From: Salinihabitans flavidus
Lineage (GTDB): Bacteria; Pseudomonadota; Alphaproteobacteria; Rhodobacterales; Rhodobacteraceae
Direction: 5' to 3'
Assembly: GCF_900110425.1 (NCBI RefSeq)
Contig: NZ_FODS01000003.1
Span: 1 to 64,000, forward strand
Length of the DNA stretch: 64,000 nt
A program made the position numbers and the translations under genes. This document shows positions 24,975 to 40,743 of the stretch, in pieces; positions within the stretch are counted from its first letter, which is position 1, and every line of letters starts with the position of its first letter. The notes under the pieces were generated by a model. That model was not told the DNA's origin. It searched no databases and saw only the letters and a list, made by a program, of their open reading frames with translations.

Positions 24975-25778
24975 CTAGGTCCGCACATCTGCCGATTTCA
25001 AACGTGCCCCGCCGGTTCCTCGGCGTTCGAACCGGCGGAAGAGCAACGTGATCGCACCGGCGATCATGAGATAAAACACGGCCAGCAACAAAAGCGGCTC
25101 GTAGACGATGAAAGTGTCGGCGCGCACCTTCGATGATACGGCGTAAAGCTCCACCACGGTGATCGTGGCCACCAGCGGCGTCGCCTTGAGTTGCAGGATC
25201 GTCTCGCCGCCCAGCGTGGGCAGAACATTGCGGATTGCCTGAGGCAACCAGATTCGCCGGAACATGGTGAATCGCTTCATGCCATAAGCCTTTGCCGCCT
25301 CAAGCTGACCTTTGGCCACACTCGAGAACGCGCCGCGCATCACTTCGCCCTCATAGCCGGCATAGGACATCGTGAGCGCAAGGACCGCATAGGGCCACGC
25401 CTGCCGCAGATACGGCCAGAGCTCGCTCGACCGGATGGCCGGGAACTGCGGAAACAACGATCCGAGTCCATAATACAGCAACCAGATTTGCAGCAACAGC
25501 GGCGTGCCGCGAATGACGGTGCAGAAACTGCGCGCAGGTATGGCAAGATACCAAGGCCCCACCGCCTGCGCGAGGCCGAGCGGTATTGCCAGCAAAAACC
25601 CCAGAACGCAGGTGATGACGAGTATCCAGACCGTGCGCCACAACCCTTCAAGCGCCAGTGGCGCATAGACGGGAATCCAGTCCCATCTGAGCGCAAGTGC
25701 GCACCACAGGACAATCCCCCCGAAAACCAGCATCAGGGCGATCCGGTGCGGTTGCATCAAGGCGCGCAGGGTGTTCAT
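24975..25778 (-). CDS. Polar amino-acid ABC transporter permease (HisM/ArtM type)
   Basis: A 267-residue permease of the His/Lys/Arg/Orn family with five or so membrane helices. It has the family pattern LEGLWRTVWILVITCVLGF and an EAA loop QLEAAKAYGMKRFTMFRRIWLPQA. The ATG at 25778 overlaps the stop of the preceding permease gene (ATGA), so the two are coupled. It is last in a four-gene operon. Confidence 0.9.
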   Translation of the reverse strand: MNTLRALMQPHRIALMLVFGGIVLWCALALRWDWIPVYAPLALEGLWRTVWILVITCVLGFLLAIPLGLAQAVGPWYLAIPARSFCTVIRGTPLLLQIWLLYYGLGSLFPQFPAIRSSELWPYLRQAWPYAVLALTMSYAGYEGEVMRGAFSSVAKGQLEAAKAYGMKRFTMFRRIWLPQAIRNVLPTLGGETILQLKATPLVATITVVELYAVSSKVRADTFIVYEPLLLLAVFYLMIAGAITLLFRRFERRGTGGARLKSADVRT

Positions 25779-26527
25779 CGGCGCGCCTCCCGAAGAGAGG
25801 GTTGTCCGCGACGCGCCCATTTCTCGACCCGGCCGAAGACAACCCCGGAACAGAGGGTAACGATCAGGTACAGCGCCCCCGCCGCGAGGAAGAACGTGAA
25901 ATAGGCCCGTGTGCTCGCAGCGGCCTGACGGGTTTCGAGGGTCAGTTCATTGAATCCGACGATGGCAAGCAATGCCGTATCCTTGGTCGCAATAAGCCAC
26001 AGATTGGCCAGCCCGGGAATCGCGAAGGACATCATCGCCGGGATCGTGACCCGACGCATCAGCATGAAGGGTGGCATGCCAAAGACGCGCGCGGCTTCGA
26101 TCTGGCCGGCCGGTACAGCCTGAATCGCGCCGCGCAGCACCTCGGTCGCATAGGCGCCCTGCACGATGCCAAGCACCCAGATTCCGGCGACCACGCCGCT
26201 GATCTCCACCCGACCATGGCCCAGCATGGTGGCGGCCTTGTTGATCAGGTCTGTGCCCACGTAATACAGGATCAGGATCAGCACCAGTTCGGGCACCGCC
26301 CTGATCACGGTCGTGTATATGGCGAGCAGATCCCGCAAGACCGGCCCGCCATAAAGTTTGCCATACGCCCCGAACAACCCGATCACGAGCCCCATTCCGA
26401 ACGCTCCGAACGCGATCTGAAGCGAATTGACCAGACCGCGCAGCAGGTTCATGCCCCAGCCCGGCGGGGACAGCGAAAGCAACCGCGCGGCCTCGGTCAG
26501 ACCGAGTATATCAAGCAGGGCGTCCAC
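25775..26527 (-). CDS. Polar amino-acid ABC transporter permease (HisQ/ArtQ type)
   Basis: A 250-residue partner permease with NSLQIAFGAFGMGLVIGL, the RAVPELVLILILYY motif and an EAA loop QIEAARVFGMPPFMLMRRVTIPA. It starts with GTG at 26527, nine bases after the binding-protein stop; no good Shine-Dalgarno is visible, so coupling is likely. With the HisM-type partner it would form the membrane channel. Confidence 0.9.
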   Translation of the reverse strand: MDALLDILGLTEAARLLSLSPPGWGMNLLRGLVNSLQIAFGAFGMGLVIGLFGAYGKLYGGPVLRDLLAIYTTVIRAVPELVLILILYYVGTDLINKAATMLGHGRVEISGVVAGIWVLGIVQGAYATEVLRGAIQAVPAGQIEAARVFGMPPFMLMRRVTIPAMMSFAIPGLANLWLIATKDTALLAIVGFNELTLETRQAAASTRAYFTFFLAAGALYLIVTLCSGVVFGRVEKWARRGQPSLREARR

Positions 26528-26536
26528 AGAGATGTG

Positions 26537-27310
26537 TTATTCGCTGTAGATGCTGGCGTCGAAATATCGCGAGGTGATCTCCTCGTGGGTGCCATCGGCG
26601 AGGATCGTCGCGATCCCTTCGTTCAGCGCCTCGCGCAGATCGTCATCCCCTTTGCGCAAACCGGCACCGACACCCCGGCCCAGAATCGCCGGATCGCTGG
26701 CCACGGCGCCCTTGATCTCACAGCAGGCCCCGGCATCGGAGTTGACGAAATCGGCCATCGCGATGCTGTCGGCCTGAATGGCGTCGACGCGCCCGGCAAA
26801 AAGATCCTGATTGGCTTCGTCCTGCGTCTGATACACCCGCAGTTCGGAGTTTTCGTCAAAATACTCCTGAGCATAGGCTTGGTGAATGGTCGAGGCCTGA
26901 ACGCCGATGATCTTGCCCGCAAGAGACTCGGGCGTGGGCTCGATCTCAAGCGATTTGTCAGCGACGATAACCGCCGGCGTGTTGTAATAGGGATCACTGA
27001 AGTCGATCGTCTTCTGGCGCTCTTCCGTAATGGACATGGATGCCATGATCGCGTCAATCTGCCCACCTGTGAGCGACGGAATGATCCCATCCCAGGCCAC
27101 GGGTGTCAGCACACATTCGAGTTTCGCGGCGGTGCAAACCGCGTCAATCACCTCGATTTCCCAGCCTTCCCACTCGCCAGAGCTGTTGAGCGAGGCAAAA
27201 GGCGGATAAGGCTCCGCCGCGATGCCGATCTTCACCTCTTGTGCGCTGGCGATCCCGGCGCTGAGCAAGGCGGTGGCAATGCCGGCGGCAAACGTTTTCT
27301 TGAATGTCAT
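26537..27310 (-). CDS. Polar amino-acid ABC transporter substrate-binding protein (HisJ/LAO type)
   Basis: A 257-residue periplasmic receptor. The signal peptide ends near ASA-QE (about residue 23). The family-3 signatures YPPFASLNSSGEWEGWEIEVIDAVC, LTGGQIDAIMASMSITEERQKTIDFSDPYY and the late SRYFDASIY are present. A Cys pair near ACCEIKG may be a disulfide. The ATG at 27310 follows GGGAG. Family members bind Arg, Lys, Orn or His. The divergent ddaH-like gene points to arginine or methylarginine, as an inference. Confidence 0.92.
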   Translation of the reverse strand: MTFKKTFAAGIATALLSAGIASAQEVKIGIAAEPYPPFASLNSSGEWEGWEIEVIDAVCTAAKLECVLTPVAWDGIIPSLTGGQIDAIMASMSITEERQKTIDFSDPYYNTPAVIVADKSLEIEPTPESLAGKIIGVQASTIHQAYAQEYFDENSELRVYQTQDEANQDLFAGRVDAIQADSIAMADFVNSDAGACCEIKGAVASDPAILGRGVGAGLRKGDDDLREALNEGIATILADGTHEEITSRYFDASIYSE

Positions 27311-27335
27311 TTTATGACTCCCTGTTTTCGGTTGG

Positions 27336-28136
27336 TTAGTGGATTGATTGCAGGAACTGCTTGAGCCGTTCGGACTTCGGATTGCCGAAAACCTCTTCGG
27401 GCGGGCCCTGTTCCTCGATCCGACCTTCAAAGAGATACACGACATGGGTCGCAACCTCACGGGCGAATTTCATTTCGTGGGTGACAAGCAGCATGGTGCG
27501 CCCTTCGGCCGCGAGATCCCGGATCACGGTGAGAACTTCGCCCACAAGTTCCGGATCAAGGGCGCTTGTGGGTTCATCGAACAGCATGACCTCAGGGTTC
27601 ACCGCGAGCGCGCGGGCAATGGCAGAGCGTTGCTGCTGCCCGCCCGAAAGGTAGGCTGGAAAGGTATCGGTCTTGTCACCCAGCCCGACCCGGTCGAGCA
27701 GAACGCGGGCCTGCGCAATGGCATCGGCTTTCGGGATCTTGAGAACATGTACAGGCACTTCGATCACGTTTTCCAGAAGCGTGCGATGAGTCCAGAGATT
27801 GAATGCCTGAAAGACCATACCGAGCCGTGTGCGAATCCGTTCGATCTGCCGCCGGTTGGCCGGGGTGCCGTCGGCACGCAGGACGATTTGCTCGCCCCCG
27901 ACCGAGATTTTTCCCCAATTCGGTGTGTCGAGAAAGTTGATGCAGCGCAGAAGTGTCGACTTTCCGGATCCGCTGCCACCAATGATGGCAACCACGTCCC
28001 CCTTGCGTGCCGAAAGCGAAACGCCCTTCAGAACCTCGAGCGGACCGAAGGATTTGTGCAAATCCTCGATCTCGATCGCTATGTCCTGCTGACCCGCCTG
28101 GGCCGGGTCACCGGGCGCGCTTGTCGTAGAACTCAT
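27336..28136 (-). CDS. Polar amino-acid ABC transporter ATP-binding protein (HisP type)
   Basis: This 266-residue ATPase has Walker A GGSGSGKST, signature LSGGQQQRSAIARAL, Walker B MLFDEPTSALDPELV and an H-loop in VTHEMKFAREV. An insertion GEQIVLRADGTPANRRQIERIR after the first strand is typical of HisP-type proteins. It is the first gene of the operon, opposite the ddaH-like gene. Confidence 0.92.
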   Translation of the reverse strand: MSSTTSAPGDPAQAGQQDIAIEIEDLHKSFGPLEVLKGVSLSARKGDVVAIIGGSGSGKSTLLRCINFLDTPNWGKISVGGEQIVLRADGTPANRRQIERIRTRLGMVFQAFNLWTHRTLLENVIEVPVHVLKIPKADAIAQARVLLDRVGLGDKTDTFPAYLSGGQQQRSAIARALAVNPEVMLFDEPTSALDPELVGEVLTVIRDLAAEGRTMLLVTHEMKFAREVATHVVYLFEGRIEEQGPPEEVFGNPKSERLKQFLQSIH

Positions 28137-28183
28137 TCACCTTTCCCTTGCATTTTGCCCTTGTATAGGGCCCGGATTCGCAC

Positions 28184-28203
28184 AATTATTCAAGTGTATA
28201 ATT
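28184..28203. promoter_or_regulatory. Inverted repeat between divergent transporter and ddaH operons (candidate operator)
   Basis: AATTAT-TCAAGTGT-ATAATT has perfect 6-bp arms around 8 bases. It includes a TATAAT reading toward the ddaH-like gene and is the most AT-rich part of this 223-bp divergent gap. It may be a shared operator or simply promoter sequence. Confidence 0.4.
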
Positions 28204-28359
28204 TTGGCCGCGCAAGTGGAACTCCCCAGTGACCGTAAATCCAGCAGATTTTCCATCGGGGACGACGGTGCGCCCGTGTTTCGTTCACACAACGAGTCGA
28301 CCGACAACACTCACGCACGGCTGGCATCATGCTGACGGACAGCTTTCAAGAGGGACTGA

Positions 28360-29160
28360 ATGACCAATCCTGCCTATGAGTTTACCCATGCCATCACGCG
28401 CCGTCCGGGCACCAGTGTCGTGAACGGTCTGCGGGCCACAGATATCGGCACCCCTGATCCCGTGCGTATGGAGAAGGCCCATGCTGCCTATGTTTCCGCA
28501 CTGCAATCGACCGGGGCCCGTGTGATCGAGCTTGATCCGCTGGAAGAGTTTCCCGACGCCCTGTTTGTCGAGGATACGGCGCTCTGCCTGCCGCAAGGCG
28601 CGGTTCTGATGCGCCCCGGCGCCGGCTCTCGGCGCGGCGAAGTGGCTCACATGGCCCCGGCCCTGCGGCAATGCTTCGATGACGTGCGAGAGATCGCGGA
28701 CGGCTTCATCGAAGGGGGCGATATCCTTGTGACGGGGCGCGAGATCCTTGTCGGACGCTCGGCCCGCACGGATGCGAATGGCGTGGCGGAGCTGTCGGCC
28801 ATCGTGGCCGATTGGGGCCATAGCTTGCGAGAGGTTTTCACACCCGAAGGTGTGCTTCACTTCAAGACGGACTGCTCGCTGCTCGATGCAGAGACGATCC
28901 TTGCCACCAGACGGCTGGATGCCTCGGGCTGCTTTGACGGCTACCGCGTGCTGCATGTGGCCGATGGCGAAGAGGCCGCGGCCAACTCCATCCGGTTCAA
29001 CAATCTGGTGATCATGCCAGCCGGTTTTCCGCGCACGGCAGACACGATCAGCAATGCTGGCTTCGAAGTTGTCGAGATCGACAATTCCGACTGTGCCAAG
29101 CTTGATGGCGGCATGTCCTGCCTTTCCCTGCGGCTGACCCCGACGACCCCTCCGGATTGA
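28360..29160 (+). CDS. ddaH: Dimethylarginine dimethylaminohydrolase-like amidinotransferase-fold enzyme
   Basis: A 266-residue enzyme of the guanidine-modifying (pentein) superfamily. DDAH converts methylated arginines to citrulline and methylamines. The conserved motifs are in place: ITRRPG near the N terminus, FPDALFVEDTA (Asp/Glu substrate ligands), FIEGGDIL, catalytic His167 in VLHFKTDC, and nucleophile Cys254 in DGGMSCLSLRL at the C terminus. It is divergent from a basic amino-acid importer, consistent with import and use of (methyl)arginine. Arginine-deiminase-like or other pentein activity is possible. Confidence 0.82.
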   Translation: MTNPAYEFTHAITRRPGTSVVNGLRATDIGTPDPVRMEKAHAAYVSALQSTGARVIELDPLEEFPDALFVEDTALCLPQGAVLMRPGAGSRRGEVAHMAPALRQCFDDVREIADGFIEGGDILVTGREILVGRSARTDANGVAELSAIVADWGHSLREVFTPEGVLHFKTDCSLLDAETILATRRLDASGCFDGYRVLHVADGEEAAANSIRFNNLVIMPAGFPRTADTISNAGFEVVEIDNSDCAKLDGGMSCLSLRLTPTTPPD

Positions 29161-29181: not shown

Positions 29182-30948
29182 TCAAGCCTGCGAGGGACCG
29201 CTCAACTCTTCGATCATCCGGTCACGCATGATGAACTTCTGCGGCTTGCCGGTCACCGTCATTGGCATCTCTTCAACGATCCGAATATGGCGCGGGATCT
29301 TGAAATGCGCGATCTGGCCGGCGCAATAGGCGCGTAGATCCTCGGCACTCGGGGAACCCTCGGGTTTCGGCACGACCCAAGCGCAGATCTCTTCGCCCAT
29401 CTTCTCATCGGGAATGCCGAACACCTGCACATCCGCGATCCCGGGATGACCGTATAGGAACTCCTCGATCTCGCGGGGATAGATGTTCTCGCCGCCGCGG
29501 ATGATCATGTCCTTGGACCGCCCCACGATCGCACAGAACCCGTCGGCATCGAACCGGGCCAGATCGCCGGTGTGCATCCATCCCCCGCGGAGCGCCTCGG
29601 CGCTTTTCTCGGGATCATCCCAGTAGCCTTTCATCACCGAATAGCCGCGCGTGCAAAGCTCCCCGCCCTCCCCTTGCGGCACGATGCGCCCTTCGGTGTC
29701 GATGATCTTGACCTCAAGGTGCGGATGCACCCGGCCCACGGTCTCGCAACGTTTGTCGAGCGGGTCGGACACGAAACTCTGAAACGACACCGGGGAGGTC
29801 TCGGTCATGCCATAGCAGATCGTCACCTCGGGCATATGCATGTCGCGCACCACGCGCCGCATGACATCCACCGGGCAAGGCGCCCCCGCCATCACGCCGG
29901 TGCGCATCGCCGTCAGATCCTGCGGTGCGGTTTCAAGCGCCTGTAACAGCGTGACAAACATGGTCGGCACACCGTAAAGCGCCGTGCAACGTTCCTGTGA
30001 CAGGGCCGCAAGCGTGGCATCCGGCTCGAATGATGACCCCGGAAAGACCATGGCCGCGCCCTTGCTCAGCGCCCCCAGAACCCCCATCACCATCCCGAAG
30101 CAATGGTAGAGCGGGACCGGAATACACAAGCGGTCCATCTCCGTCAGGGTGATCCGGTCGGTGACGAAACGGGCATTGTTGACGATGTTGTAGTGCGACA
30201 GCGTGGCGCCCTTGGGATGGCCCGTGGTGCCAGAGGTGAACTGGATATTGATGGCGTCGTCAGGATCAAGCGCCCGGTCCAGCACCGGAAGGCGCAATTG
30301 CTGCGCCGGCCCACCCAGTTTCCGAATGTCGGAGAACAGATGCGCGCCGGCAACCGCGCCCTCTCCCGTCACGATCACATGACGCAGATGCGGTAGACGC
30401 TCGGCGCGCAACCGGCCCGGCGCGCAGGTTTCCATTTCGGGCGCGAGATGCCGGATCATCCCGACATAGTCGGAGGATTTGAACGTCCGCGCCGTGATCA
30501 GCGCCTTGCAGCCCACCTTGTTGAGCGCATATTCCAGCTCCGAACGCCTGTAGGCGGGATTGATGTTGACCAACACAAGCCCGATCCGCGCGGTGGCGAA
30601 TTGCGTCAGCACCCATTCGTGACAGTTTGGCGCCCAGATCCCGATGCGGTCGCCCTTCTCTAGCCCCAGCGCAAGAAGGCCGGTGGCCAGTTCATCCACC
30701 GCGCGATCCAACTCGTAATAACTCTGGCGAATACCCTGCGCGGGAAAGATCACCGCGTCCCGTGGCCCGAAGCGGGCCACCGTCTCGCGGAAAAGCTGCG
30801 GGATCGTGATGAACCGCAACTCTGGCAGCGTCGTGCCCCGGACATAGGACATCCCGTCAACCGGCGCGCCGGTACCCTCCGGGTCACACGGTGCGGCGTG
30901 CCCCGCCTGCCGGACCTGACCGGCCAGACTTTCGTTGAGAATGGACAT
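29182..30948 (-). CDS. AMP-forming acyl-CoA ligase
   Basis: This 588-residue ANL-superfamily enzyme activates a carboxylic acid with ATP and CoA. Motifs present are [16 protein letters not shown] (AMP/phosphate loop), [10 protein letters not shown] (A5), [12 protein letters not shown] (A7), [20 protein letters not shown] (A8 hinge) and the C-terminal Lys in TVTGKPQKF. Overall it looks like the medium-chain acyl-CoA ligase group. It lies 12 bases downstream of the ATPase-amidase gene and has a GGGAGG site. It could activate the acid freed by the amidase. Confidence 0.9.
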
Positions 30949-30960
30949 GCGCGGCCTCCC

Positions 30961-33330
30961 TTACATGGTGCGCCAGTCGCCCGATTGTTCAAAGGCATGG
31001 GCGGCCTGATAAATCTTCAACTCGCCATAGCTGGGCCCGACAAGCATCATCCCGATGGGAAGCCCCTCGCTCAGACCGCAGGGCAGGCTCATCGCGGGAA
31101 GCCCGCCATTGAAAGGCGCGGTATTGCCGATCATCTCGAAGGCCCGTTGCACATAGAGGCTCAGAGAGCAGTCGGGCGGCGGGATCTCCTGCGGTTTCAT
31201 CGGCACCGTGGGCATCAGCAGCAGGTCGAACTGCCGCAGCGCCTCCGCATATTTGCCGTTTGCCTTACGCATCAGGTTCTGCGCCTTGCCATAGAACCGC
31301 CCGCGATACTGTTCCTGAAAATACTCCCCAAGGAACATGCAGGCCTTGAGCGAGTGGCTCAACTCATCCGCCCGCCCCCGCCATTGCGCCATGCGGTCCA
31401 TCATCGACGGCAGGAACAGGCCGCGATAATTCGTGCCTCCGGCATTGCCGCGCATCATGTGATCCTGAAGCCCCTCAAGGGTGATCGCAGTCCAGCAGTC
31501 CACCGCGAGGTTGTGCTCGGGGATCGACACAGTCTCCACCCGCGCGCCCAGCTCACGGAATCGGTCGGCGCCTGCGATCACCTTGTCGTCCACATCCACC
31601 TCCCCCTCCGGGCGGTTGAACCCCTCTTGAAGAATGCCGATGCGCATGCCCTGCGCGCCGCGGCCCAGAGCCTCGGTATAGCGGAAGGTCTTGGGCGCAT
31701 ACTGCCGGGGGTCAAGCCCGTCCTCGCCCGCCAGAACTTCGAGCAGCTTCGCATTGTCGGCCACGGATTTCGTGATCGGGCCGACGTGATCGATCGTCTG
31801 CTCGACCGGCATCACCCCGGTATAGGGCACAAGACCATGCGTGGCCTTCATCCCGTAGACCCCGCAATTGGACGATGGAATACGGATGGAGCCACCCTGA
31901 TCCCCGCCGATGGCCATATCCACCTCGCCCGCCGCGACCAAAGCGGCAGAGCCGCCCGAAGAGCCGCCCGCCATGTAGCCACGCTTCCACGGGTTGTGGA
32001 TCGGCCCCTTCGCATTGGTGTGCGAGGCGCCCGACAGGCAGAGGTTCTCGGAATGCGCCTTGCCCGCGATGACGGCCCCCGCATCCAGCATTCGCGTGAC
32101 GATGGTGGCGTCGATCTCCGGCACATAGCCCTCGATGATGGAGGAGCCGTTCATCATCGGCACCCCGGCAAGACAGACAGTGTCCTTCAGAACGATCCGC
32201 TTGCCCCGCAACGGACCATCGGGGGCCCCGCGCACCTCGGTCTTGACATACCAGGCGTTCAGCGGATTTTCCGTCAGGTCAGGGAAATGCCCCGGCGCAC
32301 GCGGATAGCGCACTTCGGGCAGGTTGTCGGGCATCGCGTCAAGCCGGTCATAGGCCTGGATATAGGGCTCAATGATCTGCCGGTATTCCTGCAAATCCTC
32401 GTCCGTCAGGCTCATGCCGAACCTGTCGGCCATGTCGCGCATCTGGGCGAGTGTGGGGCGATTAATCGTCATGTGTGTCACCGGGGTTGAAGGAATCGGG
32501 GTATCCGGGCGGCGCGGCGAAGCTGGTGGCGCCTTGCCGGTGCCGTGTTGGGGGACATCGGAACGTGGCGATGGGACAGCCTGCGCCCCGCGTGTCGTTC
32601 GCGCGGCGCCGAAACCGAGGAACTGATCCACCTTGGCGCGGTCCGCCATGTCATCGCGCGAAAGCTCCGCCGTAATGCGCCCGCGTTCGAGCACCAGAAC
32701 ACGGTCGGACAGGTCATGAATGAAATCGAAATTCTGCTCCACCAGAAGGATCGACACTCCGCGCGCCCGGCGCAGATGCAAAAGCGTGTCCTCCATCTCC
32801 TCGATGATCGAGGGCTGGATGCCTTCGGTGGGCTCGTCCAGAAGCAACAGGTCCGGATCGCCCATGAGGCTGCGCGCCAGCGAAAGCAACTGCTGCTCGC
32901 CGCCCGACAAAGTGCCGCCCTCGCGGTCAAGGAGCCGTTCAAGCCGCGGAAAATCGGCCAGCACACTATCGAGAACCTCGGCCTCCTCGCCTCCGGCATA
33001 GTCATGCCAGGCAAAGCGCAGATTGTCCCGCACGCTCAGCTGCGGAAAGATGCCCCGGCCCTGCGGCACGTATCCGATACCCAGCGCCGCGCGGTCGTGC
33101 GGGGCCAGGCGGGTGATCTCGGCACCGTGATAGCGAAGCTGCCCACTGGTCGCGGGCAAAAAACCCATCAGGGTCTTGAGCAGGGTCGTCTTGCCCATCC
33201 CGTTGTGACCGAGAATGCCCACGACCTCGCCTTCGGCGACGTCGAATTCCACACCGTGCAGGATCGGCACCTTGCCATATCCGCCCGAAAGACCTTTGAC
33301 CTGAAGGCCCGGATTGCTTTCGTCCAACAT
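30961..33330 (-). CDS. In-frame fusion: LivF/UrtE-type ABC ATPase plus amidase-signature hydrolase
   Basis: One open frame of 789 residues holds two enzymes. Residues 1-240 are a complete LivF/UrtE-like ATPase: Walker A GHNGMGKTT 41-49, signature LSGGEQ 141-146, Walker B LLLLDEP 161-167, and VEQNFDFIHDLSDRVLVLERG. Residues 242-286 form a Pro/Ser/Arg-rich linker. Residues 287-789 are an amidase-signature enzyme with Lys382 (IVLKDT), Ser457/458 (GGSSGGS) and nucleophile Ser481 (GGSIRIPSS). Met287 (32472) matches a normal amidase start but has no clear ribosome site, so independent translation is possible but weakly supported. Two bases separate it from the upstream ATPase gene. Confidence 0.88.
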   Translation of the reverse strand: MLDESNPGLQVKGLSGGYGKVPILHGVEFDVAEGEVVGILGHNGMGKTTLLKTLMGFLPATSGQLRYHGAEITRLAPHDRAALGIGYVPQGRGIFPQLSVRDNLRFAWHDYAGGEEAEVLDSVLADFPRLERLLDREGGTLSGGEQQLLSLARSLMGDPDLLLLDEPTEGIQPSIIEEMEDTLLHLRRARGVSILLVEQNFDFIHDLSDRVLVLERGRITAELSRDDMADRAKVDQFLGFGAARTTRGAQAVPSPRSDVPQHGTGKAPPASPRRPDTPIPSTPVTHMTINRPTLAQMRDMADRFGMSLTDEDLQEYRQIIEPYIQAYDRLDAMPDNLPEVRYPRAPGHFPDLTENPLNAWYVKTEVRGAPDGPLRGKRIVLKDTVCLAGVPMMNGSSIIEGYVPEIDATIVTRMLDAGAVIAGKAHSENLCLSGASHTNAKGPIHNPWKRGYMAGGSSGGSAALVAAGEVDMAIGGDQGGSIRIPSSNCGVYGMKATHGLVPYTGVMPVEQTIDHVGPITKSVADNAKLLEVLAGEDGLDPRQYAPKTFRYTEALGRGAQGMRIGILQEGFNRPEGEVDVDDKVIAGADRFRELGARVETVSIPEHNLAVDCWTAITLEGLQDHMMRGNAGGTNYRGLFLPSMMDRMAQWRGRADELSHSLKACMFLGEYFQEQYRGRFYGKAQNLMRKANGKYAEALRQFDLLLMPTVPMKPQEIPPPDCSLSLYVQRAFEMIGNTAPFNGGLPAMSLPCGLSEGLPIGMMLVGPSYGELKIYQAAHAFEQSGDWRTM

Positions 33331-33332
33331 GC

Positions 33333-34049
33333 TCAGGCCTTCTTTCCCAGATAGATGTTGCGCACATGCGGGTCCGACATGACGGTCTCCACATCGTCCT
33401 CGATCAGGATCGCCCCCTGATGAAAAACCGTGACCGTGCTCGCGATGGAGCGGATGAACTGCATGTCGTGCTCCACGATGACCACGGCGGCGGTTCGGTT
33501 AAGCTCGTGGATCACCTCGGTCATCCGCGCGACCTCACCGGCCGTCATCCCGGCGGCCGGTTCATCCAGAAGCACCAGCCACGGATCGCTCGCCGCGACA
33601 AACCCCAACTCCACCTGCTGTCGCTCGCCATGCGCGAGCCGCCCCAACTCTGTGCGCGCGATCGGCCCCAGCGCCAGCCGGTCGATGACCTCGCGGGTCT
33701 TGGCAGCGGCCTGCGCGGACGGCACGAAACGCCGCGCGGCAAGCCAGATATTCTCCTGCACGCTCAGCCCGTCCATCACGTTGGGCACCTGCGTCTTGAT
33801 CCCGACACCGAGCGCGGCCACACGATGCGGCGGCCAGCCCGTGGTCTCCTCCCCCTGCATGAGGACATGGCCCTCGCTCGGGGTGAGCAGGCCGGTCAGA
33901 CACTTGAAGAAGGTCGATTTGCCTGCCCCATTCGGCCCGATCAGGCAGCGCAGCTCGCCCCGCCGCAATGTGAAGGTCACATTGTCCACCGCGACAACGC
34001 CGCCAAAGCGCATGGTCAGATGCTGTGTTTCCAGAACGGGTTCAGCCAT
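33333..34049 (-). CDS. Branched-chain/urea-type ABC transporter ATP-binding protein (LivG/UrtD type)
   Basis: This 238-residue ATPase has Walker A GPNGAGKST, Walker B LVLLDEPAAGM and an H-loop in IVEHDMQFIRS. The signature reads LAHGERQQVELG rather than LSGGQ, as in UrtD-like ATPases of urea and amide transporters. The start at 34049 overlaps the upstream permease by eight bases; longer frames are low-complexity and rejected. It probably pairs with the ATPase half of the fused protein. Confidence 0.9.
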   Translation of the reverse strand: MAEPVLETQHLTMRFGGVVAVDNVTFTLRRGELRCLIGPNGAGKSTFFKCLTGLLTPSEGHVLMQGEETTGWPPHRVAALGVGIKTQVPNVMDGLSVQENIWLAARRFVPSAQAAAKTREVIDRLALGPIARTELGRLAHGERQQVELGFVAASDPWLVLLDEPAAGMTAGEVARMTEVIHELNRTAAVVIVEHDMQFIRSIASTVTVFHQGAILIEDDVETVMSDPHVRNIYLGKKA

Positions 34050-35082
34050 CGGTCCGCCCCCTCCTGCGATTGCGGCGCAGGGCTCCTGCGCGCCCGGCCC
34101 GTCGCGGTCGTCCGATGCTGGCCCGCCAGACGGAGATCGCCGCCGGCACCACGCCGCGCGGCAGGAACAGCACGAACAGCACAAGGATCAGCCCCATCAG
34201 CATGGTGTTGTTGATCATGCTCTGTTGGCCGAGAAGGAACTTCAGGTATCCTAGACCCGCCGCGCCCAGAAGCGGGCCGAAGCGCGTGCCAAGCCCGCCG
34301 ACAATGCACCAGATGATGATCTCGGCCGATTGCGACAGGCTGAATAGCCCCGGCGTGACAATCGCGCCCCAATTGGCGAAAAGCGCCCCCGCCAGCCCGG
34401 CAATCGCGGCCCCGATGGCGAACAACACTGTCTTGCGCGCGCGCACGTCATACCCGATCAGGGACATCCGGGTCTCGTTCTCGCGGATACCCACGGCAAT
34501 GCGCCCGAATGAGGACCGCAAAAACCATGTCACCCCCAGATAAACAAGCAGCAGCGCCACCGCGCACAGGTAATAGAGCGCATCCCCCCAGATAAAGAGA
34601 TCGGGCCGCCCCGGCACGTTGAGCGTGGGAAAGCCCGGGATCCCGTTATACCCGCCCAGCCGCGCGGTGCCGATGGTGTACTGCGGCCCGGCGGTGGAGC
34701 TGATGAACTTGAACAGGATCAGTGTCACCACGAGGGTGATCACCCCCAGATAGACATCCCCGAGCCGGCCATAGAACATCATCGCCCCGAGCAGCGCGGC
34801 AAAGACGCAAGGGACGATCACCGCCAGAATCATCGGCAGGGTGCTTTCGCCGGTATTGATGGCGGCGATGGCATAGGTATAGGCGCCCAGACCAAAGAAC
34901 GCGGCCTGACCGAAACACAGGATGCCGCCGAACCCCCAGATCAGGCCAAGGCTCAGGCCGAGCATCGCATAGATCGCCAGAACCGTCAGCGTGTAGGTTC
35001 CCACCATCAGCGGCAGCGCCCAGATCAGAACCGCCGCAACGAGAACCGTGACGATCACGTCTTTTCCGGCAGTCCCCTGCAT
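34042..35082 (-). CDS. Branched-chain/urea-type ABC transporter permease (LivM/UrtC type)
   Basis: A 346-residue permease with about nine membrane helices. It has the LivM signatures YAMLGLSLGLIWGFGGILCFGQAAFFGLGAY near the N terminus and RIAVGIRENETRMSLIGYDVRARKT in the cytoplasmic loop. A basic Arg-rich C-terminal tail follows the last helix. The ATG at 35082 shares one base with the stop of the preceding permease gene; an in-frame GTG lies just upstream. Confidence 0.9.
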   Translation of the reverse strand: MQGTAGKDVIVTVLVAAVLIWALPLMVGTYTLTVLAIYAMLGLSLGLIWGFGGILCFGQAAFFGLGAYTYAIAAINTGESTLPMILAVIVPCVFAALLGAMMFYGRLGDVYLGVITLVVTLILFKFISSTAGPQYTIGTARLGGYNGIPGFPTLNVPGRPDLFIWGDALYYLCAVALLLVYLGVTWFLRSSFGRIAVGIRENETRMSLIGYDVRARKTVLFAIGAAIAGLAGALFANWGAIVTPGLFSLSQSAEIIIWCIVGGLGTRFGPLLGAAGLGYLKFLLGQQSMINNTMLMGLILVLFVLFLPRGVVPAAISVWRASIGRPRRAGRAGALRRNRRRGRTDG

Positions 35083-35948
35083 CACATGCGCCCCCGGAAA
35101 AAGCGCGCCGTGATCCCCTGCGGCAAGAGCCGCAACAACACGACCGCCGCGATCAGAAGCGCGACCTCCCCGATCACCGGCGACAGCGCGAAGGTGAAGA
35201 TCTGGTCGATGACGCCAAAGACGCTGGCGCTGCTGACCAGCCCCGCAATCAGCGACGGCCCCCCCGCGATCACGGTGATGAAGGCCTTGGCGATATAGGC
35301 CCCACCCGATGTCGGAACCAGCCCGACCAGCGGCGCAAGAATCGCTCCGGCCAGCCCCGACAGCGCCGAGCCGCAGAAGAACGTGGCCATGTAGATGCGC
35401 TCGGGGCTGTAGCCAAGGCTGGAGGCCATGTCAGGGCGTTGCATCGTGCCGCGCGCGATAAGGCCGAGCCGTGTCCTGCCCAGCACCAGGTAAAGGGCGA
35501 TCATCAACAGCACCGACACCACGACGATAAAGAGATTATAGCCGTTGATCTGGTAATTCCCGATCGCCACGCCCGGTATCGGGGTGGAAATGCCCGTGGT
35601 GGTATTGCCGAAGATGATCGTCGCCAGACCGATGAAAAACAGGCTCAGCCCCCAGGTCGCCAGCATCGTATCCACCAGACGCCCGTAGAGATGCCGGATC
35701 ACAAGACGCTCCACCACCAATCCGATCAGCCCCACCACCACGGGCGCGATGATCAGCATCGCCACGAAGACATTGATGCCCAGATTGACGGAGACGATGG
35801 TGGCATAGCCGCCCATCATCATGAATTCGCCATGCGCGAGGTTGATCACCTTCATCATGCCGAACACCACCGCCAGCCCGACGCTGATCAGCGCGAGAGA
35901 CGCGACGGCGTAAAGTATCTCGATCCCGATGACGACTGTCAGATCCAT
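35082..35948 (-). CDS. Branched-chain/urea-type ABC transporter permease (LivH/UrtB type)
   Basis: A 288-residue permease of the LivH/UrtB family: SVGLAVVFGMMKVINLAHGEFMMMGGY near the start, then ATWGLSLFFIG, and a loop RTRLGLIARGTMQRPDMASSLGYSPERIY. It forms the channel with the LivM-type partner. It lies about 100 bases after the binding-protein gene, a gap that holds two GC-rich hairpins. Confidence 0.9.
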   Translation of the reverse strand: MDLTVVIGIEILYAVASLALISVGLAVVFGMMKVINLAHGEFMMMGGYATIVSVNLGINVFVAMLIIAPVVVGLIGLVVERLVIRHLYGRLVDTMLATWGLSLFFIGLATIIFGNTTTGISTPIPGVAIGNYQINGYNLFIVVVSVLLMIALYLVLGRTRLGLIARGTMQRPDMASSLGYSPERIYMATFFCGSALSGLAGAILAPLVGLVPTSGGAYIAKAFITVIAGGPSLIAGLVSSASVFGVIDQIFTFALSPVIGEVALLIAAVVLLRLLPQGITARFFRGRM

Positions 35949-36046: not shown

Positions 36047-37267
36047 TCAGATGTCGATTTCGTACTGCGTGTTGTCGCCGGGGTTGGCCCCTAGATCGCA
36101 CACCGCCTGCGTATCCATCGGCTGCCGCTGCGGCAGGGTTTCGAGAACCTGCATCTTCTGATCCCTGATTTCCATCAGGCGCACATCGGCGATGGCATGG
36201 TGGGTTTGTGGATCGACCGTGATCTTGCCCGAGGGCCCGTCCACCGACAGCCCCGATTCCAGTGCCTCGACCACCGGGTCATGCGCGGCCGTGCCGGCCT
36301 GCCGCACAGCCTCGGCCCAGGTCATGACACCGGCATAGGTGGAGATGGCGAATTCGTTGATCTCGCCCGCATTGCCGCCCGCGGCCTCCCACTTGGCCTT
36401 GAACCCGTCATTCTCGGGCGACTCGATCTCCTGGCTGTAGTTATAGGCCACCATGATCCCGTCACCCTCTTCGGCGGTCAGGACCTTGTGCTCATTGCCC
36501 ACGCCCAGCGTGGTGGAGGCCAGAGGGATGCGATCCTTCATGCCCGATGCGGCCCATTGGCGGAAGAACGACAGATGCGCGCCCCCCACCAGCGGCGCCA
36601 CCACGAGATCGGGCGCGGCGGACTGGATCTTGGCGATGGTCGAACCGAAATCGGCCACATCCAGCGGGAAGAAGTCCGTCGCCACGACCTCGCCGCCATT
36701 GTCGCGCACGAACTTGTTGATCCAGCGCGCCATGATCTGCCCGTAGTTGTAATCGGCCGCCAGCACATAGACCTTCTTGCCCGACTGCTTCATCGCGTGC
36801 GGGATCAGCACCTCAACCTGCTGCGCGGGTGTCACGCCGTTGATGAAGATGTTGCGGTCACAAACGCCGCCCTCATACATCACGTTGTAGAAATAGAGCG
36901 TGTTGCTGCGGCGCATGGTCTGGCGGATCGCCTCGCGCGAGGCGGACAGGATACCGCCATGCACCACGTCCACCTGATCCTGCCGCGTGAGTTGCTGGGC
37001 ATACTGCGCATAAAGGGCCATGTCCGATTGCGTGTCATAGGCGCGAATTTCGATCGGCCGGTCCAGAAGCCCCCCGCCGTCGTTCAGATCGGCCACGGCA
37101 AGGCGCATCGCGCGATCCATCGGTTTGCCATAAGCGTCGAAAATGCCCGAGGTGTCGAGGATCGAACCCAGCTTGATCGGTTCCGCCGCGCGGCCAATCC
37201 GAGGCATGAGGCCCGTCCCCGCCATTGCCGTTCCCGCTGCAAGAAACTGTCGTCTGTTGAAAGTCAT
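36047..37267 (-). CDS. Tat-exported ABC substrate-binding protein (Peripla_BP_6, urea/amide type)
   Basis: A 406-residue receptor. The N terminus FNRRQFLAAGTAMAG is a twin-arginine signal ending near GRAAEP. The mature protein follows the type-I Leu/Ile/Val-binding fold with UrtA/FmdD-like features: IKLGSILDTSGIFDAYGKPM, YEGGVCDRNIFINGV, and VYVLAADYNYGQIMARWI. Substrates of this branch are urea and short amides. It is placed between the flotillin and permease genes and is probably the receptor for the downstream permeases and amidase. Confidence 0.9.
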   Translation of the reverse strand: MTFNRRQFLAAGTAMAGTGLMPRIGRAAEPIKLGSILDTSGIFDAYGKPMDRAMRLAVADLNDGGGLLDRPIEIRAYDTQSDMALYAQYAQQLTRQDQVDVVHGGILSASREAIRQTMRRSNTLYFYNVMYEGGVCDRNIFINGVTPAQQVEVLIPHAMKQSGKKVYVLAADYNYGQIMARWINKFVRDNGGEVVATDFFPLDVADFGSTIAKIQSAAPDLVVAPLVGGAHLSFFRQWAASGMKDRIPLASTTLGVGNEHKVLTAEEGDGIMVAYNYSQEIESPENDGFKAKWEAAGGNAGEINEFAISTYAGVMTWAEAVRQAGTAAHDPVVEALESGLSVDGPSGKITVDPQTHHAIADVRLMEIRDQKMQVLETLPQRQPMDTQAVCDLGANPGDNTQYEIDI

Positions 37268-37312: not shown

Positions 37313-38977
37313 TCATTCCTTGGTCTTGTTGTCGCTTGGCTTGTCCTTGCCATCCTTGGGGGTAATGCGATTGGCGTAGTCCGCCGTGCGTCCGGCGAGG
37401 TTGGCGTCAAAGTCGAAACCGATCTCCTCGCCCATCTGCTTCATCGCCGGAAGGCGCACGGCCATGCCGAGGATCTGGTCCATCGCGGCGCCAAAGGCGC
37501 CTTCGACGCCGGTGCCGTCGCCGCCGCTCATACCGCCGCCCGTCCCGCCGATCTGGTTGATGCGGATGGAGTCGATCTTTTCCACCGGCTTCATCATCTG
37601 CGTCATGATCTCGGGCATCCGGTCGAGCTTGTGACCCTCCAGACGCATCCGAAGCACCGTCTCGCTCAGCGTGTTTTCCGCCTCGTTCAGCGCGGCCTGA
37701 CCGGCGGCGCGGGCCTGCATGCCGATCTTCTCGGCCTCGGCGGCGGTCTGCGCGGCGCGGGCCTCGGCTTGCGCGCGCGACAGCATGATTTCCACATCCG
37801 AGGCGACTTTCTCGTTCTCCAGTTCAAGCGCGCTCTTCTGCTTGAGCCCTGAAATCTCGCGCTCGCGTTCAGCGATGGCGCGCTCCTTCTGGGCCTGGAC
37901 CTGCTCGGCGGCCAGCAGAACCTGCGCACGAGAGGTTTCCTCGGCGGCCTTCGCCTCGGCCTCTTCGGCGCGCCTGCGTGCAAGCTGTATGTCGTTCGCG
38001 ATCTTCGCCTCTTCCAGCGCCAGGATGGCCGCCATCTCGGCGCGGCGCAGCGCCTCGTCGTTGTCGACCTGCGCGGTCTTGAGGCGCTGATCCTTCTCGA
38101 TGCGCGCGGTTTCCGAGGCCAGTTCCGCCTCGGTCGCCGATGTCTCGCTGCGCGCCCGCGATTCCGCCTCAAGGCGGGCAATGTGTTCGCTCTGGGCGAT
38201 CTCGGCCTCACGCTCGGCGCGCTGCACCTCCAGCCGCTTGTTGTGCTGGGCCAGCCGGCTCTCGCTGATCGCGATCTCGGCCTCCGTTTCCACCTTGACC
38301 CGCGCCTTGCGCTGCTCGGCCACCAGTTCGGCCAGACGGCGCATCCCCTGCGCGTTGAAGGCATTGCTTTCGTTATGCTGCGTCAGGTCGCTCTGATCCA
38401 CCGCAACAAGTGACGCCGAGACCAGAACCAGCCCCAGCCGCTCGGCATGCGCGCTCGCAAGTTGCGCGACCTCATCGGTGTATCCGGCCCGATCCAGATG
38501 GATGTCCGCCATCCCGCGCTTGGCGGCAGCGTTCTGCATCGCGTTGGCCAAAGGGCCGGCGAGAACCTCGTGCACCCCTTCGCCGCCACTGCGGGAAATC
38601 CGGCGGCCAAGCGCCTGCGCCGCCGTCGCGATGCCCTTTTCGCTGGGATCGACATAGAACTCGAATTCCATGTCCACATCGGCACGCAGCTGATCCTGCG
38701 TCAGAAGGGCGTCGCGCCCACTGCGCGAAGTGGTGAAAGAGATCGTGCCCATCGACACGCGCTGCACCTGATGCAGTATCGGCAAGGCCAGACACCCGCC
38801 ATCCACCACCACGCGCCGCCCGCCCATCCCGGTGCGCACCAGCGCCGTCTCCAGCGTGGCCTTGGCATAATAGCGGTGCAGAAACCAGATGCCGATCAGA
38901 ACGACAGCGGCCAGAACGAGCAGAGACAGAAACCAGATCAAGGCCAGATCCCCCAATGTAACAGGTGGTGCCGCCAC
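37313..38977 (-). CDS. Flotillin-like SPFH-domain protein
   Basis: This 554-residue protein has one N-terminal membrane helix (about 10-33), an SPFH/band-7 domain (about 45-215, with LALPILHQVQRVSMGTIS and RLGLVLVSASLVAVDQS), and a long Ala/Glu/Arg coiled coil (about 215-430, many AEAEA/EREREI repeats). A Gly-rich segment (GGTGGGMSGGDGTG) and a charged tail follow. This is the flotillin/YqiK plan, a membrane microdomain scaffold. The start is uncertain: GTG at 38977 is used, and its Shine-Dalgarno is poor. The binding-protein gene follows after 45 bases, so the genes are probably co-transcribed. Confidence 0.85.
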   Translation of the reverse strand: MAAPPVTLGDLALIWFLSLLVLAAVVLIGIWFLHRYYAKATLETALVRTGMGGRRVVVDGGCLALPILHQVQRVSMGTISFTTSRSGRDALLTQDQLRADVDMEFEFYVDPSEKGIATAAQALGRRISRSGGEGVHEVLAGPLANAMQNAAAKRGMADIHLDRAGYTDEVAQLASAHAERLGLVLVSASLVAVDQSDLTQHNESNAFNAQGMRRLAELVAEQRKARVKVETEAEIAISESRLAQHNKRLEVQRAEREAEIAQSEHIARLEAESRARSETSATEAELASETARIEKDQRLKTAQVDNDEALRRAEMAAILALEEAKIANDIQLARRRAEEAEAKAAEETSRAQVLLAAEQVQAQKERAIAEREREISGLKQKSALELENEKVASDVEIMLSRAQAEARAAQTAAEAEKIGMQARAAGQAALNEAENTLSETVLRMRLEGHKLDRMPEIMTQMMKPVEKIDSIRINQIGGTGGGMSGGDGTGVEGAFGAAMDQILGMAVRLPAMKQMGEEIGFDFDANLAGRTADYANRITPKDGKDKPSDNKTKE

Positions 38978-39078: not shown

Positions 39079-40203
39079 TTATATGCGCTTTATAACCGAA
39101 AATTGTATGCCATCAGCGCGGGCAAGATAGATCGGGGTGCGCATCACCCCCTCATCCGTCGCGCGTTCACGCCGCGCGCTGCGATAATCGAGGGTGCAGG
39201 GAATCACCTGCCCGCCCTCGCGCCAGCCAGCGTCATCGCGCCCCAGAAGACCGGCCAGGAAATGCATCCCCTCATAAGTCGATTGACCGATGGCGTTGAG
39301 CACTGGCGCATGCTCTCCATGCAGGCTGTAATATTTCTCCTTGAACGCGCCGTTGGCCTCGGTCGGCAGCGCTCCGAAATACGACGCGGCCGAGAACAGC
39401 CGCTTGAGATTCTCTCCGCCGCTGGCCAGCAGACCGTTCTCCTCGACCGCACAGGACAGGCGCACGATCCGGTTGTCCAGACCGGCCATCCCGAACGCCC
39501 GGTTGAAGGCGACCGCATCCTGCCCCACCAGTGAGATCAGCACCGCCTCGGCCCCCGAGGCGGCAAGCTCGTCCACATGGCGGCCCATGTCGCGCAGGCC
39601 GAAGGGCAGATACCGCTCGAACGCAAGATTCGCGGACATGTCGCGCAGCTTGGCCTTGGCATAGGCATGCGAAGTTCGCGGCCAGACATAGTCATTGCCG
39701 ATCAGCGCCCAGCTTCGCGGCCGGAACTGCGCCTGAAGATAGTGCAGCGCCGGGCCCAACTGCGCATCCGGCGTCTCCCCGATGGCGAAAATTCCGGCGG
39801 TCTGTTCGCCCCCCTCGTAAAGCGGGGTATAGATATAGGGCACGCGCTGGCCGACGACCTTGCTCAGCCGCTGGCGCACGGCACTGATGTGCATTCCGAC
39901 GATGGCGTCAATCGCGCCCGCCTCGATCAGCTCATGCACCACGGCCTCCACCGGCGTGGGCGCTTCAAGGGCCGCATCGACCATGATCAGCTCGACCGGC
40001 CGACCCGCGATCCCGTCGCCGCGGTTGAGCTCTCGCACCGCGACCTGCGCGCTGGAGATGCAGGACGGCGCCCACAGTCCGGCCGACCCGCACAGCGGGA
40101 TCAACAGCGCCACGCGATAGGTGCGTGCCGCTCCGCGCAGCGGACGGTCGCCGATCTCCGGCACCTCCGTGGGAAACAGAGCCTCACCCATGCAAGAGAT
40201 CAT
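39079..40203 (-). CDS. AmiC-like cytoplasmic amide-sensing protein
   Basis: A 374-residue protein with the type-I periplasmic-binding fold but no signal peptide, as in AmiC, the amide sensor of the Pseudomonas amidase operon. Family stretches are YRVALLIPLCGSAGLWAPSCISSAQVAV, VDAIVGMHIS-like segments, PYIYTPLYEGGEQTAGIFAIGE, and GNDYVWPRTSHAYAKAKL. No AmiR antiterminator gene is seen nearby. The ATG at 40203 has AAGG nine bases upstream. It is upstream of the flotillin gene on the same strand and divergent from a MarR gene. Confidence 0.82.
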   Translation of the reverse strand: MISCMGEALFPTEVPEIGDRPLRGAARTYRVALLIPLCGSAGLWAPSCISSAQVAVRELNRGDGIAGRPVELIMVDAALEAPTPVEAVVHELIEAGAIDAIVGMHISAVRQRLSKVVGQRVPYIYTPLYEGGEQTAGIFAIGETPDAQLGPALHYLQAQFRPRSWALIGNDYVWPRTSHAYAKAKLRDMSANLAFERYLPFGLRDMGRHVDELAASGAEAVLISLVGQDAVAFNRAFGMAGLDNRIVRLSCAVEENGLLASGGENLKRLFSAASYFGALPTEANGAFKEKYYSLHGEHAPVLNAIGQSTYEGMHFLAGLLGRDDAGWREGGQVIPCTLDYRSARRERATDEGVMRTPIYLARADGIQFSVIKRI

Positions 40204-40308
40204 TTTGCAAGCCTTGAACAATAGTCAGGTCGGTTCGCAACACTGCAATTGAATTTACTTTCCAAGTCAACTATTAATTGGAACAGGCTAGATACGGTGG
40301 ATTACGGC

Positions 40309-40743
40309 ATGGATCAGGTTTCAACCCCAATGGAGTCCTACATTTCCTACATGCTGGCCGCGGCGCATCGCGCCGTGCATCAGACACTCGCCGCCCGCCT
40401 CAAGGATCAAGGGATGCAGGTCGAGACATGGCGCATCCTTGAGGCTCTCGACAGCGAACGCCAGCTCACCATGGGAGAACTGGCGCGCACCGTGCTGATG
40501 AACCCGCCGACTTTGACCAAGATGGTGGATCGGATGGTCTCGCAGGGCCTCGTTCACCGCCAGATCGCCGCCTCCGATCAGCGCAAGGTCAATCTGCTGC
40601 TGACGGATCTGGGGCGCAAGCGCATGACCGAAATCCGCGAACTGGTCCGCCTGCAAGACCGCGAGATTCTCGCGCAGTTCGACCCCCAGCAGGTCGAGGT
40701 GCTCAACCGCGTCCTGCGCGATCTGTCCGACACCGCCGGCTGA
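40309..40743 (+). CDS. MarR-family transcriptional regulator
   Basis: This 144-residue protein is a winged helix-turn-helix of the MarR type. It has VETWRILEALDSERQLTMGELARTVLMNPPTLTKMVDRMVSQGLVHRQ (recognition helix) followed by the wing ASDQRKVNLLLTDLGRKR. The ATG at 40309 is used; an earlier in-frame start would add 20 atypical residues. It is divergent from the AmiC-like gene, so it is the best candidate regulator of the amide operon. Confidence 0.88.
   Translation: MDQVSTPMESYISYMLAAAHRAVHQTLAARLKDQGMQVETWRILEALDSERQLTMGELARTVLMNPPTLTKMVDRMVSQGLVHRQIAASDQRKVNLLLTDLGRKRMTEIRELVRLQDREILAQFDPQQVEVLNRVLRDLSDTAG

Follow-up and report, generated by a model that had tools for sequence, protein, structure and literature searches.

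Does the single reading frame that joins an ATP-binding cassette (ABC) transporter ATPase to an amidase in Salinihabitans flavidus represent a genuine gene and, if so, which proteins does it make? The frame lies in the first 64,000 nucleotides of contig NZ_FODS01000003.1 (this whole stretch being called the window), where 789 codons run from position 33330 down to 30961. As far as sequence comparison can tell, the ATPase–amidase fusion is real and old, being present in dozens of relatives. The gene most likely makes two products, an importer-tethered amidase of 86 kDa and a free amidase of 55 kDa, the latter translated from a predicted internal start. What is new is that the amidase's own start codon and ribosome-binding-site signature are kept inside the fused gene, and that a flotillin gene is found in the fused operons.

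The fused gene (30961..33330, minus strand, as for all its parts) encodes a UrtE/LivF-type ABC ATPase, a linker and an amidase of the amidase signature family, together 789 aa with a calculated mass of 85.9 kDa. An earlier note, made from the letters of the window alone, had described the same uninterrupted frame of 789 codons, leaving its strand unstated. The ATPase half, delimited by Pfam and NCBIfam profiles and by motif alignment, comprises residues 1–240 (32611..33330), with the Pfam ABC_tran domain at residues 24–168 and the NCBIfam UrtE-type profile covering residues 9–238. Its motifs are Walker A (G41–K47), the signature LSGGE (141–145) and Walker B (D165 and E166). The amidase half (30964..32472) carries the Pfam Amidase domain at residues 365–770 and belongs to the PRK07235 subfamily. 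The NCBIfam profile of this subfamily (NF005565) covered residues 287–788 with 748.5 bits, above its curated cut-off of 545, and was matched over positions 1–505 of 506, profile position 1 falling on the internal Met287. The Lys–cisSer–Ser residues of the amidase signature family were found as K382, S457 and S481, which we take to be the catalytic triad, in line with the alignment to the solved amidase 3a1k over query residues 298–782, K, S and S motifs included. Walker A, LSGGE, Walker B and the amidase residues K382, S457, S458 and S481 were invariant among 43 aligned fusions, the window's own included, which upheld the earlier description of two complete halves with their catalytic residues kept. 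The amidase half is presumed to hydrolyse an amide. The linker (residues 241–286; 32473..32610) is 46 residues long and not 45, as the earlier note had counted; the Pro/Ser-rich character given there agreed with the Ala/Pro/Thr/Ser-rich composition obtained over 73 linkers. In a structure model of the fusion (mean predicted local distance difference test score, pLDDT, 64.6), the ATPase half was confident and the amidase half patchy, and the linker was predicted to be disordered, with a pLDDT of about 30 over residues 241–280.

To survey relatives, bacterial and archaeal genomes were scanned with the fused protein as the query, using short peptide patterns from both halves, a procedure which reaches close relatives only and does not require the halves to be fused. 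The scan returned 47 loci, 45 with both halves, one with the amidase only (L055) and one with the ATPase only (L056). Both halves lay in one stop-free common frame in 45/45 loci; 43 of them read through to the amidase end and two (L037 and L044) leave the contig. Because all 45 loci keep one frame without a stop between the halves, sequencing error and chance were excluded, and a frameshift, a missed stop and decay were ruled out on the same ground. The conservation of the LivF–linker–amidase architecture in relatives, which the earlier note had proposed as a check, was thus found in every locus with two halves. That sequencing or assembly artificially joined two genes is a practically negligible possibility, with nothing found in its favour, as the in-frame join occurs with varied linkers in 45/45 loci, including isolates and one complete plasmid, and RefSeq records the fused gene of Sulfitobacter alexandrii as a single 2382-nt coding sequence. 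The record calls it simply 'amidase', a name that easily hides the ATPase subunit.

Searched with the amidase alone, 33 of 295 genomes of the family matched with an E of at most 1e-100; with an E of at most 1e-150, matches came from 43 of 385 genomes of the class and from 20 of 398 genomes of the phylum. The three genome sets overlap, and each counts the own genome. Among 131 classified loci (L009–L139), 81 were fused, 25 had a separate ATPase gene beside the amidase, 24 were without an adjacent ATPase (the truncated L055 and L097 included) and one was without an amidase; weaker family and class matches that got no locus are omitted from this classification. After the removal of duplicates, 73 fused regions were distinct, counting that of the window. 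By their titles, the loci returned by the scan with the fused protein came mostly from Rhodobacterales, with others from further Alphaproteobacteria (such as Hoeflea and Roseibium) and one (L050) from an Arenicellales assembly. L051, labelled Chloroflexi, is probably mis-binned, its tree neighbour being the alphaproteobacterial L042.

In a 120-row amidase tree (quick search, midpoint-rooted, with Shimodaira–Hasegawa-like approximate likelihood-ratio test (SH-aLRT) support only; L044, with its amidase cut by the contig end, and the fragment L055 were excluded), the 72 fused rows formed one clade with an SH-aLRT of 96. The only extra row in this clade was L097, which is uninformative on the fusion because only 47 nt lie between its contig end and the amidase. 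That the fusion arose more than once was not favoured, given this single clade, which together with the 45/45 open loci strongly supports the earlier note's view of a genuine fusion and not of decay or a frameshift error.

The linkers of the 73 regions were 29–71 residues long (median 48), of 29 different lengths and rich in Ala, Pro, Thr, Ser and Gly. Since an open common frame was the criterion for calling a region 'fused', the 0/73 linker stops and the multiple-of-three lengths hold by construction and are no evidence. Stops were present in 58 and 29 cases in the other two frames, the picture of an unselected frame, and the ATPase–amidase spacing in the 25 separate-gene loci fell into all three phases (11, 7 and 7). 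In 15 hand-picked close pairs, some with a member in common, the ratio of nonsynonymous to synonymous substitution rates (dN/dS) was 0.08–0.63 for the linker (dN 0.02–0.55), 0.01–0.09 for the amidase and 0.02–0.20 for the ATPase.

These values bear on the possibility that the amidase domain mainly regulates transport, its bound substrate or product adjusting the ATPase. Other importer ATPases, such as MalK, ModC and MetN, have C-terminal regulatory domains, so the amidase sits in the usual place for such a domain, and the ATPase of the fused loci is without a stop of its own. The invariance of the presumed catalytic residues in the 43 fusions and the low amidase dN/dS speak against a purely regulatory role, and a long, variable and presumably disordered linker suits tethering more than allostery. 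We consider regulation as the main function quite improbable, and a catalytic amidase tethered to the importer the better account of the fused protein.

The second product is predicted from the first codon of the amidase half. The internal ATG of Met287 (32470..32472), at the start of the amidase profile, is preceded by a Shine–Dalgarno (SD)-like signal, GGTGA, at positions -10 to -6 (32478..32482), so that the window reads GGTGA, five bases, ATG. The product from Met287 would have 503 aa and a calculated mass of 54.9 kDa. Both parts of the putative internal start, the start codon and the ribosome-binding site, were conserved among the 73 distinct regions with a fusion. At the position of Met287, 71 of them have ATG, one (L036) has GTG and one (L033) has ATC. 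GGTGA at the identical spacing preceded 43/73 internal starts versus 2/2366 of the remaining in-frame ATGs in these genes, and any of six SD cores was found within positions -16 to -5 in 55/73 versus 78/2366.

The third bases of the codons at this site were compared with expectations from each gene's own codon use in 56 members with an amidase identity of at least 70%. The third base supplying the first G of the signal was G in 51/56 (expected 26.9), even though the residue encoded there varies among ten amino acids, and that of the next codon was G in 52/56 (expected 23.3). No G excess was present at any of eight other codons tested, most of which avoid G. Among 12 representatives below 85% identity, the same third bases were G in 10/12 (expected 5.1) and 11/12 (expected 3.9). 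Where Val-Thr occurred at the site, Val was encoded by GTG in 39/41 cases, as compared with 43/133 elsewhere in the same frames. A Val-Thr-x-Met motif in the protein was rejected as the cause of the conserved GGTGA because of this third-base bias, the replacement of Val by Gly in 6/56 members and the unbiased Val-Thr pairs elsewhere. By these counts, synonymous positions are biased towards retention of the internal start signal.

The 17 members below 70% identity mostly had another purine signal ahead of the same Met. It was the Arg codon AGG in ten of them (L072–L080 and L102), AGGGAG or CAGGAG in three (L093–L095) and GGA in three (L098–L100), and L050 had none of these. In the frames of the GA[AG]AGG branch, AGG accounted for 1 to 7 of 33–56 Arg codons. 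Pairing of the internal start region with the anti-SD sequence of the 16S tail was predicted at a mean of -6.8 kcal/mol. This lies between the -8.0 of 25 separate amidase gene starts and the weaker values of synonymous recodings (-4.4) or other ATGs (-3.8). Local mRNA folding was -5.9 kcal/mol at the internal start versus -13.4 at other ATGs, and weaker than the mean of the latter in 73/73. The earlier note had offered one 85-kDa product or separate products as alternatives; this choice is probably wrong, as the signals predict the 86-kDa fusion together with the free 55-kDa amidase.

A tethered amidase plus an internally started free amidase, serving an operon for amide uptake and utilisation, is in our judgement the probable arrangement. 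Several points weigh against it. The codon in L033 is ATC and no start codon, its GGTGA being retained; as the sole non-start codon among 73, it makes this locus a natural test case for the internal start. The low folding is partly a matter of composition, since the site's own shuffles averaged -7.3 kcal/mol, the site being less folded than these in 59/73. Per-locus synonymous tests were weak alone, with P<0.05 in 4/73 and P<0.1 in 10/73, and pairing was -4.2 kcal/mol or weaker in 9/73 (L031, L041, L042, L044, L051, L058, L072, L091 and L098). The GGTGA test was post hoc, performed on the same and related sequences in which the pattern was first noticed, and because the sequences are related, the counts are not independent and overstate the evidence. 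The poor structure model of the amidase half and the transporter subunit scores below urea-transporter cut-offs belong on the same side.

Some of these points suit an alternative in which the full-length fusion is the sole product and an ancestral separate amidase gene has left the internal ATG and GGTGA as relics. The equivalent Met, behind a purine-rich signal, is where most of the 25 separate amidase genes begin (with the mean pairing of -8.0 kcal/mol given above), so an ancestral signal probably existed, and the nine weakly pairing fused members and the one without the ATG would be as expected of a relic. An unused signal should erode in a fast-evolving linker (dN 0.02–0.55), yet its third bases were held in 51 and 52 of 56 members, which disfavours the relic explanation. 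The deep branches also differ in the signal ahead of the same Met (GGTGA, GA[AG]AGG or CAGGAG). We give the relic a small chance, and a used internal start, yielding the free amidase beside the tethered one, remains preferred.

The gene order in the window is a binding-protein-like sensor, flotillin, substrate-binding protein, two permeases, ATPase, fusion and acyl-CoA synthetase, with a divergent MarR gene. On the minus strand, these are a UrtA/AmiC-like ligand-binding protein (39079..40221), the flotillin (37313..38977), the substrate-binding protein (Peripla_BP_6; 36047..37267), a LivH/UrtB-type permease (35082..35948) and a LivM/UrtC-type permease (34042..35085), both with a BPD_transp_2 domain, a second ABC ATPase of the UrtD/LivG type (33333..34052), the fusion and an AMP-binding acyl-CoA synthetase (29182..30948), which begins 12 nt after the fusion stop; the MarR-type regulator is at 40249..40743 on the plus strand. 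The 39079–40221 protein resembles AmiC (1pea, E 9.6e-17) and adjoins the divergent MarR gene. As no signal peptide was seen by eye, it is perhaps the cytoplasmic ligand sensor of the operon.

The flotillin had both the Flot (PF15975) and the SPFH/Band_7 domain above gathering scores (107 bits against 27 and 48 bits against 23.6, respectively). Longer flanks were compared for 60 of the 73 distinct fused regions (L010–L054, L086 and L140–L153, leaving out the window and 12 others). A flotillin gene was present in 56/60 fused operons, and the other four (L014, L032, L044 and L051) are contigs ending before its position. The acyl-CoA synthetase followed the fusion in 55/60; the contig ended first in L037 and L044, and in L140, L147 and L153 it did not follow. 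No flotillin match was found in the 24 unfused neighbourhoods, several of which come from the same genus and one of which (L162) has a short upstream part. In 23 of these 24, no acyl-CoA synthetase came directly after the amidase, and L162 had a match of 32% identity; in unfused L154, the amidase lies beside the importer operon on the opposite strand. A quick, unrooted flotillin tree placed 14 background flotillins, all from the same bacterial family, on one side of a branch and 38 operon flotillins on the other, and repeated recruitment of ordinary genome flotillins was not favoured by this separation. Since the fusion and the flotillin both go back to a single clade, their association counts as one common history, retained in every case seen, and not as many independent events.

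This context bears on the proposal that the fusion only fixes co-expression and stoichiometry, the proximity of the two halves being without benefit. The amidase already follows the ATPase in separate-gene relatives, only 3 nt apart in L088, which makes the step to fusion small. The operon, however, already supplies co-expression, and an internal start would undo a fixed stoichiometry. The flotillin, a member of a membrane scaffold family, accompanies the fused operons and was not found in the 24 unfused neighbourhoods, which would suggest that proximity matters, even though this pairing is one shared history. Co-expression as the sole benefit appears to us rather unlikely, and a benefit from having the amidase at the importer is preferred.

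The importer is of the HAAT kind with a LivF/UrtE ATPase, as the motifs of this ATPase were found and the operon also encodes another ATPase, a pair of BPD_transp_2 permeases and a binding protein of the Peripla_BP_6 family. The identity of a urea transporter was rejected: the UrtE equivalog TIGR03410 scored 266.2 bits, below its curated cut-off of 285.8, and the operon scores for TIGR03407, 03408, 03409, 03411, 03622, 03669 and 03727 were likewise all below curated cut-offs. Among solved structures, the substrate-binding protein best matched 8tg1, an 'extracellular ligand-binding receptor', followed by urea-binding proteins and next by AmiC. The homology of the amidase to solved 3a1k and the nitrile hydratase genes adjoining separate-gene relatives point to small organic amides as the putative substrate. 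A nitrile hydratase alpha subunit gene is also located elsewhere in the own genome (contig C29, 61737–62279), and this nitrile hydratase could supply amides to the pathway.

In the preferred reading, translation from the first ATG would give an ABC ATPase always bearing an amidase on a flexible linker. An amidase-free ATPase is predicted not to be made from the fused gene, barring proteolysis, and since no ATPase could be made without amidase, every importer would always have the enzyme at its inner, cytoplasmic face. The tethering of the hydrolase to the importer, proposed in the earlier note, would follow from this architecture, and we infer, as that note did, that the imported amide is channelled to hydrolysis. 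The internal ATG would add free amidase, so that with both products in cells amidase could exceed importer. The operon would import an amide, and the amidase would hydrolyse it, with release of ammonia, to a carboxylic acid, which the co-encoded acyl-CoA synthetase would activate to acyl-CoA. The kinetic advantage would lie in the capture of the substrate before it leaks back or diffuses. A more tentative and on balance doubtful extension is that flotillin organises the importer, the tethered and free amidase and the acyl-CoA synthetase into a membrane unit that captures the imported amide and turns it into acyl-CoA on site. If the amidase dimerises, as the Rhodococcus enzyme presumably does, tethered amidases could cross-link neighbouring importers, and the amount of the free form could adjust how large the clusters become.

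An importer motor fused to the enzyme that probably uses its cargo offers a direct, testable case of coupling between transport and metabolism, for which nature provides fused operons and matching ones with separate genes. Through its conserved internal start, the gene would have a built-in control over how much of the enzyme is tethered and how much is free, and the steady presence of flotillin in fused operons gives a concrete system for studying the role of bacterial flotillins in nutrient uptake.

Two further observations concern neighbouring genes. In the window, positions 24975–29160 hold a polar-amino-acid-type ABC system (two permeases, a binding protein and an ATPase) adjoining a dimethylargininase-like gene, the NCBIfam match of which was below the cut-off; this is possibly a cluster for methylarginine uptake and degradation. 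A second amidase gene directly follows the first in L140 (3324 and 4796), L157 (12355 and 13899) and L163 (5445 and 6990). L140 has its first amidase joined to the ATPase; L157 and L163 have two separate ones.

The nearest known systems are operons with a separate-gene UrtABCDE-type importer and a PRK07235-type amidase, which share the importer type and a homologous amidase, the 25 loci with an adjacent separate ATPase gene having 45–61% amidase identity. Those of Paracoccus methylovorus p1, Rhizobium sp. pMK-3 and Agrobacterium pAtAF1_95 have the order substrate-binding protein, permease, permease, ATPase, ATPase, amidase, as in the fused operon, and a nitrile hydratase accompanies the latter two. 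They differ in the stop between the ATPase and amidase genes, and flotillin was not found in 24/24 unfused neighbourhoods. The solved amidase 3a1k/3a1i, presumably from Rhodococcus, is homologous and has the K, S and S motifs in common but is a stand-alone enzyme.

The full-text literature search, which covered few subscription papers, gave no account of an ATPase–amidase fusion among the matches listed. In the known amide operons amiE-amiC-amiR and urtABCDE-fmdA, an ABC importer lies beside a separate amidase, one of them having an AmiC sensor; they share the importer–amidase adjacency, but their amidases (AmiE and FmdA) are other, stand-alone enzymes, and the available part of the source describes no importer fusion (PMC13209695). 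The nitrile pathway of Pseudomonas chlororaphis B23, set out in part in the accessible text of PMC5391958, likewise leads from amide to acid to acyl-CoA; it differs in its aldoxime dehydratase and nitrile hydratase, and an importer fusion is not mentioned in that text. In Staphylococcus aureus, the IsdF importer is reported to need the flotillin scaffold FloA, a case which differs in being a heme importer of another phylum, with no enzyme fusion mentioned in the portion available (PMC10147376). The individual parts of the locus are of known kinds; it is their combination that is new.

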